Position numbers and translations under genes: made by a program
Notes under the pieces: model-generated
Seen by the model: only the letters and a program-made list of their open reading frames with translations
Databases searched by the model: none
Told to the model about the DNA's origin: nothing
Assembly (NCBI GenBank): GCA_013820875.1
Contig: JACDHS010000005.1
Span: 30,569-94,568, forward strand
Direction of reading: 5' to 3'
DNA: 64,000 bases
Source: Verrucomicrobiota bacterium
Lineage (GTDB): Bacteria; Verrucomicrobiota; Verrucomicrobiia; Limisphaerales; JACDHS01
Shown here: in pieces, positions 31,634-35,112 of the stretch
Layout: every line of letters begins with the position of its first letter
How positions within the stretch are numbered: the stretch's first letter is position 1

Positions 31634-31662
31634 AGCACGGGGATTGGAAAGCCGATTCCCCG

Positions 31663-31943
31663 AATCCCAAAGGGATTCCGTAACGAAGCCCAGGGTTGCG
31701 AGGCACGAGCTACCCTGGGTAAAACGTCCGTAGATCAACAACCCCGAAGCGGGTTGCGTAAATCGTTTCGGAAATATCAATAACACCTACGCCACAATCG
31801 GCGCGCTTTTGAGGATGAAAAGTATGTTGGGATTGATTTACGCAACCCCGTTGGGGTTGTTGATGTTTTTTGACGTTACCCAGGGTAGCTCCGATCCGAT
31901 CGGAGCAACCCTGGGCTTTGTTACGGAATCCCTTTGGGATTCA
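31663..31943. mobile_element. Miniature RAYT-derived element (two inverted three-hairpin repeats around a 71-bp core)
   Basis: Left repeat 31663-31766, right repeat 31838-31943 in inverted orientation. The core keeps gccacaatcg (RAYT codons 1-4) and gatgaaaagtatgttgggattga (RAYT last codons) from the element at 34428-35112. Confidence 0.85.
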
Positions 31944-32407: not shown

Positions 32408-32435
32408 AGGTGTCCTATGACGCTCTCCTCACCCC

Positions 32436-32534
32436 GAATCCCAAAGGGATTCCGCAACAAAGCCCAAGGGTTGCGAGGCACGAGCTACCCTGGGTATAAC
32501 GTTCTTGAATCAACAACCCCCAAGGGGGTTGCGC
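32436..32534. repeat. Solo REP-like three-hairpin repeat (copy C)
   Basis: gaatcccaaagggattc / cccaagggttgcgaggcacgagctaccctggg / caacccccaagggggttg. Confidence 0.85.
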
Positions 32535-32742
32535 ACGGGATTAACAAATACTTCGCATCCCCAGTCACATCATCCGTAAACTGAGTGCTGAAACGAATAG
32601 GATTCTTTTGCGCCATTTCACCAGTGGCTCGCAGAGTTTCACCGAATGGACTGTATGCGTATCTGGCACTTTCGGCACCTTGAACGGCATTAACCAGAAG
32701 ATCAACATTGCCGTTGCCATAAAACAGTAATTGATTGCGCAT
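32535..32742 (-). pseudogene. RHS-repeat core remnant
   Basis: Minus frame: LLFYGNGNVDLLVNAVQGAESARYAYSPFGETLRATGEMAQKNPIRFSTQFTDDVTGDAKYL, then runs into repeat copy C. Stop TAA lies just upstream of the first Met. Confidence 0.75.
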
Positions 32743-32776
32743 TGTTTATCGCGGCACGTCGTGGCCTAGTTATCAA

Positions 32777-33406
32777 ATGAGGAAGGCGCTTACGTTATTT
32801 ACCTTGGTTTTCGCGATCTTCGCAAGCTCAAGCCTTTGCAGCGGAGTTGAAAACAAACCTGGCACCGGAAAGCGCCACTTGGGATGGTTTTTTTTAAATG
32901 ACAAAATTGAGGTTCCAGTAAAAATTCGATATGATTCCTCAAATATTGTAGTAGAAATCGAGACTTCTGTCAGCAATGCTACTTTCAAAAAGGAGTTGCA
33001 GACGTGGATTTTAGTGAGGGAAGGAGCAGTGATTCCGCACAAATCAGACACTCTGCATGTTTCTGGAACCGACCATCTGTTTTTGCAGGCCGATAACAAT
33101 GCGAGGACACCATTGGGAGTTGTCCTAAAAGTCGAGGATGTGTTCCACACATTTCGAATACAACCTAGAGTAGCAGGCGCTTCTGACGAGGCACAATATC
33201 TTATTGATCAGCTACTTGCAACTCCAAAGGTTGATCAAGAGGCATTTGAGACTTCCAAATCCACACCAGCCTCCGTGCCGCACGTTAGGATTGGCAACCT
33301 CAAGCAGCAACTTTCTAGGATGGGCGTTGAAGTTAAGTGGTTGCCCTCAACAAAGAGCTACGAAATAAAAACGCAACGTGTCGATAGAGAACGGCAGGTT
33401 TTTTAA
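32777..33406 (+). CDS. Hypothetical secreted protein
   Basis: ORF 32735..33406 with a signal-peptide-like start MRKALTLFTLVFAIFASSSLCSG at about 32777. Confidence 0.55.
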   Translation: MRKALTLFTLVFAIFASSSLCSGVENKPGTGKRHLGWFFLNDKIEVPVKIRYDSSNIVVEIETSVSNATFKKELQTWILVREGAVIPHKSDTLHVSGTDHLFLQADNNARTPLGVVLKVEDVFHTFRIQPRVAGASDEAQYLIDQLLATPKVDQEAFETSKSTPASVPHVRIGNLKQQLSRMGVEVKWLPSTKSYEIKTQRVDRERQVF

Positions 33407-33815: not shown

Positions 33816-33912
33816 TTAATTTACCTCGCAGGTTTTTTGTGCGGTCTGGTTTCCCTGAAGAAAAAGAAAAGCTGAATATAAAAGTGAGTGAAAACAACAC
33901 CGTGTAGCATTT

Positions 33913-33977
33913 CCCCAAGGTAGCTCCGATCCGATCGGAGCAACCCTGGGCTTCGTTACGGAATCCCTTTGGGATTC
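33913..33977. repeat. Truncated REP-like repeat (copy D)
   Basis: ccccaaggtagctccgatccgatcggagcaaccctgggcttcgttacggaatccctttgggattc; lacks the CAACCCC hairpin. Confidence 0.8.
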
Positions 33978-34427: not shown

Positions 34428-35112
34428 GAATCCCAAAGGGATTCCGTAACAAAGCCCAGGGTTGCGAGGCACGAGCTACCCTGGGTAAAACGTCCGTAGA
34501 TCAACAACCCCAACGGGGTTGCGTAAATCGTGCAGAAACAAATTTAAAAAACATTATGCCACAATCGCTCTCTGCTGTTTATATCCACCTCGTTTTCTCA
34601 ACAAAGGATCGTCGTCCTTTTCTGCGGGATCAAACGTTGCGACATGAAGCGCATTCCTACCTTGCAGAAGTTTCAAACAGACTCGACTGCCCTGCTCTTC
34701 TCGTCGGCGGCGTAGAAGATCATGTTCATATCCTGGCGCGTTTTGGCCGGACGATCACACAAGCCGAATGGGTCAAGGAATTGAAACGCGCCTCCAATGA
34801 ATGGATTAAAGGCAGAGGCTGTGATTACGCTGACTTCCAATGGCAAGGTGGCTACTCCGATTTTTCTGTCAGCCAATCGAATCTGGAGCAGGTCTTCAAA
34901 TACATCGCCAATCAGGAAGAGCATCATCGGAAGGTAAGTTTTCAAGACGAGTTGCGCGTGCTTTTGACTAAGCACGAAACCAAATGGGACGAGAAATATG
35001 TGTGGGATTGATTTACGCAACCCCGTTGGGGTTGTTTGGTCTTTTGACGTTTTACCCAGGGTAGCTCGTGCCTCGCAACCCTGGGCTTTGTTACGGAATC
35101 CCGTTGGGATTC
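34428..35112 (+). mobile_element. Complete RAYT element: transposase gene flanked by inverted three-hairpin repeats
   Basis: Left repeat 34428-34530, RAYT ORF 34556-35011, right repeat 35012-35112 in inverted orientation starting immediately after the stop codon. Confidence 0.9.
34556..35011 (+). CDS. REP-associated tyrosine transposase (RAYT), IS200/IS605 TnpA-like Y1 HUH family
   Basis: MPQSLSAVYIHLVFSTKDRRPFL, HUH motif GGVEDHVHILARF, C-terminal GYSDFSVSQSNLEQVFKYIANQEEHHRKVSFQDEL. Confidence 0.92.
   Translation: MPQSLSAVYIHLVFSTKDRRPFLRDQTLRHEAHSYLAEVSNRLDCPALLVGGVEDHVHILARFGRTITQAEWVKELKRASNEWIKGRGCDYADFQWQGGYSDFSVSQSNLEQVFKYIANQEEHHRKVSFQDELRVLLTKHETKWDEKYVWD

Follow-up and report, generated by a model that had tools for sequence, protein, structure and literature searches.

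A transposase-less miniature element in a Verrucomicrobia genome as a probable internal-deletion derivative of an IS200-like Y1 transposon

A 281-base element of a Verrucomicrobia genome, located at 31662-31942 of the window (the whole stretch of 64,000 nucleotides that was analysed), is very probably, at a rough probability of 0.92, the transposase-less internal-deletion derivative of an IS200-like Y1 transposon, its parent having been a second copy or a close sister of the full-length element at 34428-35112. A first-pass annotation of the same DNA had described the sequence and position of this miniature correctly and had regarded it as an internal-deletion product of the neighbouring element's lineage, a view which is sustained by colinear pieces of the transposase gene in the core, by the arms and by independent cases with other junctions. 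The features concerned are as follows:

31662..31942, plus strand: miniature element (doublet), two inverted arms of about 105 nt flanking a 79-nt core
31662..31758, plus strand: left arm of the miniature, three palindromes, 99/103 positions shared with the full element's left arm
31789..31800, plus strand: remnant of transposase codons 1-4 (M P Q S), 11/12 against 34556-34567
31801..31812, plus strand: remnant of late transposase codons (..RVLL..), 11/12 against 34956-34967, p ~0.0005
31813..31836, plus strand: remnant of the last eight transposase codons including the stop (DEKYVWD and stop), 21/25 against 34987-35011
31838..31942, plus strand: right arm of the miniature, 94/109 against the right arm of the full element
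32435..32533, plus strand: solo left-type arm belonging to the repeat family of the miniature's arms
33911..33977, plus strand: solo right-type half arm, also of this repeat family, 96% identical to the right arm of the miniature
34428..35112, plus strand: full-length element consisting of left arm, transposase gene and right arm, arms with 99/105 inverted identity
34556..35011, plus strand: TnpA-Y1 transposase gene, 151 aa, Pfam Y1_Tnp 7e-21

Each arm of the miniature holds three palindromes, and the two arms lie in inverted orientation with an identity of 89/109 (score 111, against a maximum of 27 in shuffles). In the left arm, an outer palindrome (GAATCCCAAAGGGATTC) is followed by a middle one (CCCAGGG...CCCTGGG) and an inner one (CAACCCC...GGGTTG, then CGTAA). 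When inspected by eye, the feet of the inner and outer palindromes read TTACG(C/G); the only occurrences of GTAG are within the middle palindrome and within a spacer. As single-stranded DNA the element is predicted to fold into one long imperfect hairpin (-102 kcal/mol, z = -15.6). This inverted palindromic pair within one hairpin is a structure of the REPIN type, with long three-palindrome arms in place of classical REPs; an Rfam search of the window returned no match. Both ends of the parent element have been kept, as in other internal-deletion derivatives, with the left-arm match including the non-palindromic spacer GTAAAACGTCCGTAGATCAA and the right inner arm being identical to that of the full element (24/24).

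By the boundaries used here the core of the miniature measures 79 nt (31759-31837), in place of the 71 bp given earlier, and three pieces of it match, colinearly and in register, the transposase gene that lies 2.5 kb away. The start piece ACGCCACAATCG (31789-31800) agrees with ATGCCACAATCG (34556-34567) at 11/12 positions, confirming the earlier reading that its start codon has decayed from ATG to ACG. A middle 12-mer that had gone unnoticed, GCGCGCTTTTGA (31801-31812), matches GCGTGCTTTTGA (34956-34967) at 11/12. The end piece GGATGAAAAGTATGTTGGGATTGA (31813-31836) corresponds to GGACGAGAAATATGTGTGGGATTGA (34987-35011) at 21/25, with one 1-nt deletion and three base changes, each at a third codon position and each synonymous. 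The earlier statement that only the first and last codons had been retained thus holds in that both ends are present, but these extend to the first four and the last eight codons and a middle four-codon piece has been kept as well. Missing from the gene are 388 + 19 + 1 nt (456 - 48 = 408 nt), so that colinear remnants adjoin each arm while the central part is gone, the arrangement expected of an internal-deletion derivative. In the miniature and the full element alike, TTTACGCAACCCC comes after the stop codon TGA, and the identity of this junction indicates that the end piece is still attached to its own arm. No direct repeat has been recognised at the deletion junction.

Alignment to the full element, a check suggested with the first-pass annotation, gives an end similarity that is better than chance. 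The observed score was reached by 7/5000 dinucleotide shuffles for the 5' piece and by 2/5000 for the 3' piece, and that of the middle piece by 0.05% of shuffles. Since the dinucleotide shuffles ignored colinearity and register with the arms, the joint match is far rarer than these figures. The start (ATGCCnCARTC) and end (GAYGAR..TAYGTnTGGGAYTGA) of the gene are conserved across nearly all relatives, so that a match to them is diagnostic. When 48 doublet cores were scored against a profile built from 48 transposase ends, the end motif of the miniature ranked best, with 30.9 bits, while no shuffle exceeded 15.7. A 17.7-bit candidate on the reverse strand of another core (locus L099), TGGGATTGA, is a 9-mer only and has been taken as a chance match. 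It could be argued that the core resembles the transposase by accident and that the doublet is unrelated to it, given that the start and end matches cover merely 12-25 nt each and that the cores of the genome's other doublets are unrelated; this reading has already been refuted by the shuffle tests on all three pieces, by the diagnostic gene ends, by genome-wide controls and by the independent cases described below, whose controls stood at zero (the G008 and G678 searches), and hardly any weight is left to it.

The same type of product has been detected in other genomes by the kind of search that had been suggested for further copies with other junctions, the own genome holding a single copy. 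An order-wide search of 320 genomes, using a pattern that joins gene start and gene end at 3-33 nt, matched the window, genome G225 and two sites inside unrelated genes (in G130 and G242), which were rejected as chance matches; the reversed-pattern control gave 1. A longer-gap pattern in the 320 genomes recovered G225 again together with G008 (control 0/320), and a start-to-end pattern in 388 genomes across the phylum recovered G678, which belongs to another class (control 0/388). The G225 fusion encodes MPQSLGFVLIHVNDERYVWD and a stop, joining the first ~12 and the last 8 codons in frame, and that of G008 encodes MAQKNELRVLLRKHDMQRDERYVWD and a stop, joining the first 3 and the last ~22 codons, also in frame. 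In G678, MAQSLS is joined out of frame to LKRYCVDDDERYVWD and a stop, between clean three-palindrome inverted arms (76/93), with the stop codon placed against its own arm as in the miniature. No left arm was detectable in G008 and only partial arms in G225, which makes them deleted genes whose arms are incomplete, and not clean doublets. An acidobacterial record (L136) contains a start-only derivative whose doublet arms have an inverted identity of 96/115 and in which the full gene's ribosome-binding site and ATGCCTCAA are still present (a 27-column alignment, reached by 0/5000 shuffles). A full-length gene begins within ~100 nt downstream of this doublet, which thus adjoins its full gene, as the miniature in the window lies near its own element.

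The fusions in G225, G008 and G678 are independent joinings of the same gene ends at other junctions, and internal or partial gene loss is a repeated event in this IS200-like Y1 transposase family. A full-length gene with a matching 3' end was not found in G225 or G678, where the derivatives may have outlived their parents. In the own genome, one 3' remnant of a C145-type Y1 element comprises 37 codons and an arm (L054, C92:22154-22264), and another, of a C73-type gene, comprises the gene end and a palindrome (L200, C41:36283-36306). A truncated or deleted remnant has been found for all three Y1 families of this genome, indicating that copying and cutting of such elements does take place. The frame is kept, and start and stop are intact, in two of the four two-ended fusions, and it is conceivable that the fused reading frames of G225 (MPQSLGFVLIHVNDERYVWD) and G008 (MAQKNELRVLLRKHDMQRDERYVWD) are translated as regulatory peptides, with the window copy having decayed. 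This is highly improbable: the frame is lost in the fusions of the window and of G678, chance alone would often enough put two of four in frame, and no fused peptide is conserved between genomes.

The enzyme of the full-length element had been labelled a RAYT, a designation that has to be abandoned, as the protein is a TnpA-Y1 of IS200-like type that bears the subclass 1.2 signature. The Y---NP of class 2 RAYTs (PMC6006769) is absent from the catalytic-tyrosine region here (YIANQEEHH), and Y116, Q120 and H123 are invariant among 26 relatives. The NCBIfam model for REP-associated tyrosine transposases (NF047646) scores 22.1 bits, below its cut-off of 80, and the IS200/IS605 model 49.8 bits (cut-off 55); all 26 relatives match the IS200 model and 10/26 match the RAYT model, weakly. 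A profile search of the PDB matched ISDra2, IS608 and related structures, and a RAYT structure was not found at E <= 0.01. The predicted structure (pLDDT 89.6) suggests the HUH/Y1 fold of IS200/IS605 TnpA, with ISDra2 (1.9e-8) and IS608 (6e-8) as best Foldseek matches and the RAYT 4er8 at 2.2e-5. The subclass assignment is based on a motif and length signature, consisting of DHVH, WQ, YIANQEEHH, 151 aa and a conserved tail ending in DEKYVWD, and the genome has the low number of divergent copies found in this subclass (three genes, the other two 46-52% identical). Filing the protein under RAYTs or TIRYTs has been ruled out by motifs and model scores. The partner RAYT that defines a REPIN is thus replaced by a Y1 enzyme which has matching arms and the subclass 1.2 signature.

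With regard to its origin, the parent of the miniature would have lost 388 nt and 19 nt inside its gene, in a deletion that would have left both palindromic arms, the first four codons, the late four-codon piece and the last eight codons; subsequent decay would have turned ATG into ACG and removed 1 nt. An ordinary slip of replication or repair, promoted by the hairpin-forming arms, is the most likely cause of the deletion. Some observations count against simple descent. The leader between the left arm and the start codon shares only 16/28 positions with its counterpart in the full element, as against 96% identity for the arm, which indicates that arms and interior differ in history, either by arm homogenisation or because the parent was somewhat unlike the present neighbour. 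The miniature, two solo arms and the full element are packed within 3.5 kb, and their arms have probably been homogenised among one another. The middle loop of the right arm (GCTCCGATCCGATCGGAGC) is unlike that of the full element and the same as in the solo arm at 33911-33977. The three terminal substitutions, all being synonymous, fit divergence while the sequence was still a gene better than pure post-deletion decay, and part of the divergence may therefore predate the deletion.

This packing and the loop shared with a solo arm would also suit an assembly of the doublet by recombination between solo arms, with a scrap of the transposase gene having been trapped between them. Such an origin is improbable, considering that both gene ends are present, that the junction between the stop codon and its own arm is the very one seen in the full element and that G678 has the same arrangement. 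The ~1.4 kb between the two solo arms contain an ORF (32735-33406) and an Rhs-like fragment (ORF 32485-32742, minus strand), the latter recognised by eye and without a Pfam match.

In IS608 and ISDra2, TnpA works as a dimer that recognises the terminal hairpins of single-stranded DNA and cuts and rejoins the ends. By analogy, the arms of the miniature may act as recognised ends, forming single-strand hairpins for the neighbouring subclass 1.2 TnpA in trans, and any DNA between such arms, a gutted gene included, could be excised or moved with the enzyme supplied in trans. The miniature is potentially a non-autonomous TnpA substrate, although today it is probably inert or only rarely moved. Another reading is that it has itself moved since the deletion, as a true MITE inserted here by the neighbour's transposase in trans. 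The retention of full arms and the many short doublets genome-wide would agree with such movement, as would the coincidence of arms and transposase gene among 58 genomes (26 with both, 5 with arms only, 9 with the gene only and 18 with neither; Fisher p = 1e-4). Movement is nonetheless rather unlikely, in view of the single copy in the own genome; a MITE in the strict, mobile sense would be betrayed by dispersed near-identical copies or by empty sites. A comparison with G001, G037 and G045 yielded no empty site, the genes around the site not being syntenic there: the upstream WYL-domain gene has only 29-41% relatives in these three genomes, without conserved neighbours.

The internal deletion favoured for the miniature had been put forward as showing how non-autonomous doublets could arise. 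One route has indeed been shown, but only a single miniature copy exists, and a transposase remnant convincingly above shuffles occurs in 2 of 48 doublet cores (those of the miniature and of L136), with the other 46 being without one. Four doublets of the own genome (C9, C238, C20 and C104) were rejected as siblings of the miniature, their cores showing no significant similarity to that of the miniature, among themselves or with the gene ends; of 30 comparisons a single one gave a p of 0.006, and the C9 core appears suggestive by eye. Deletion thus accounts for some doublets and not demonstrably for all, and those without a transposase trace may be older or of different origin. In many Limisphaerales relatives (L114-L128), the transposase gene is immediately preceded, ~100-250 nt upstream, by a complete short doublet and has single arms downstream, a recurrent layout that differs from that of the window. 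G052 has at least 37 arm matches and, as its only transposase relative, a fragment with a stop, and arm matches without an intact transposase relative have also been observed in G016, G021, G025, G042 and G053. In arm-bearing genomes of this kind, the doublets may be maintained in the gene's absence or may depend on a different Y1 enzyme.

Inverted flanks exceeding 100 shuffles were detected at 40 of 54 related loci, two Flavobacterium loci included. Distant subclass-1.2-like genes from Bacteroidota and from a deltaproteobacterial MAG likewise lie between long inverted repeats, at L145 and L146 (Flavobacterium) and L147 (110/152, 82/112 and 91/128), which departs from what has been published on the subclass. 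It can tentatively be proposed, at somewhat less than even odds, that subclass 1.2 drives a widespread REPIN-like system of its own, with its genes placed between long inverted arms that bear palindromes, across Verrucomicrobiota, Acidobacteriota and Bacteroidota, and with doublets repeatedly made by internal deletion and then persisting, some without the gene. For the miniature itself, a step in the origin of a doublet has been caught in the sequence, with gene ends still lying between the arms and near the full element. The recurrence of the deletion step at other junctions, in no fewer than three further genomes, offers one concrete route to enzyme-less passenger repeats, and the recognisable ends carried by this overlooked subclass make its activity testable.

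Core-deleted IS200/IS605 elements have a precedent in the PATEs (palindrome-associated transposable elements) of Haloquadratum walsbyi, which are core-deleted IS605-type elements, some with C-terminal remnants (PMC3119063). In contrast to the miniature, with its subclass 1.2 parent, long inverted three-palindrome arms, single copy and junction lacking a recognised direct repeat, PATEs descend from archaeal parents of the IS605 type, have palindromes near their ends but no terminal inverted repeats, often show deletions between direct repeats and form mobilised multi-copy families (PMC3119063). The origin of REPINs, REP doublets mobilised by RAYTs, was called unknown by their discoverers, with palindromes flanking an IS200-like ancestor as one possibility (PMC3116915). 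Like REPINs, the miniature has inverted palindromic repeats, a short core without a gene, an intergenic location and a Y1 transposase with matching arms in the genome; unlike them, its arms are ~105 nt long with three palindromes instead of one short REP, its copy number is low, no GTAG tag was seen by eye at the hairpin foot and the partner enzyme is not of the RAYT class (PMC3116915). It would thus work like a REPIN but is not one of the known kind, because its partner Y1 enzyme has the subclass 1.2 signature. TIRtrons, with their TIRYTs, likewise have a Y1 gene between long inverted repeats, some of them self-complementary, which also occur as dimers elsewhere in the genome (PMC3733652); TIRYTs, however, are RAYT-like class 2 proteins, mostly of subclass 2.1, with ~238 aa and Y---NP (PMC6006769), whereas the protein described here has 151 aa and Y---Q--HH. 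Subclass 1.2 has been described as low in copy number, as generally devoid of terminal IS200 structures, as lacking REPs and as hosted mostly by Cyanobacteria and Bacteroidetes (Quentin et al. 2018, PMC6006769). The present proteins share its DH[IV]H, WQ and Y---Q--HH motifs, a length of ~148-151 aa, a conserved C-terminal tail and few divergent copies per genome, and depart from that description in their Verrucomicrobiota and Acidobacteriota hosts, in inverted flanks at most loci and in their deletion derivatives (PMC6006769). The present case therefore joins features of PATEs, REPINs and TIRtrons in a different enzyme subclass.
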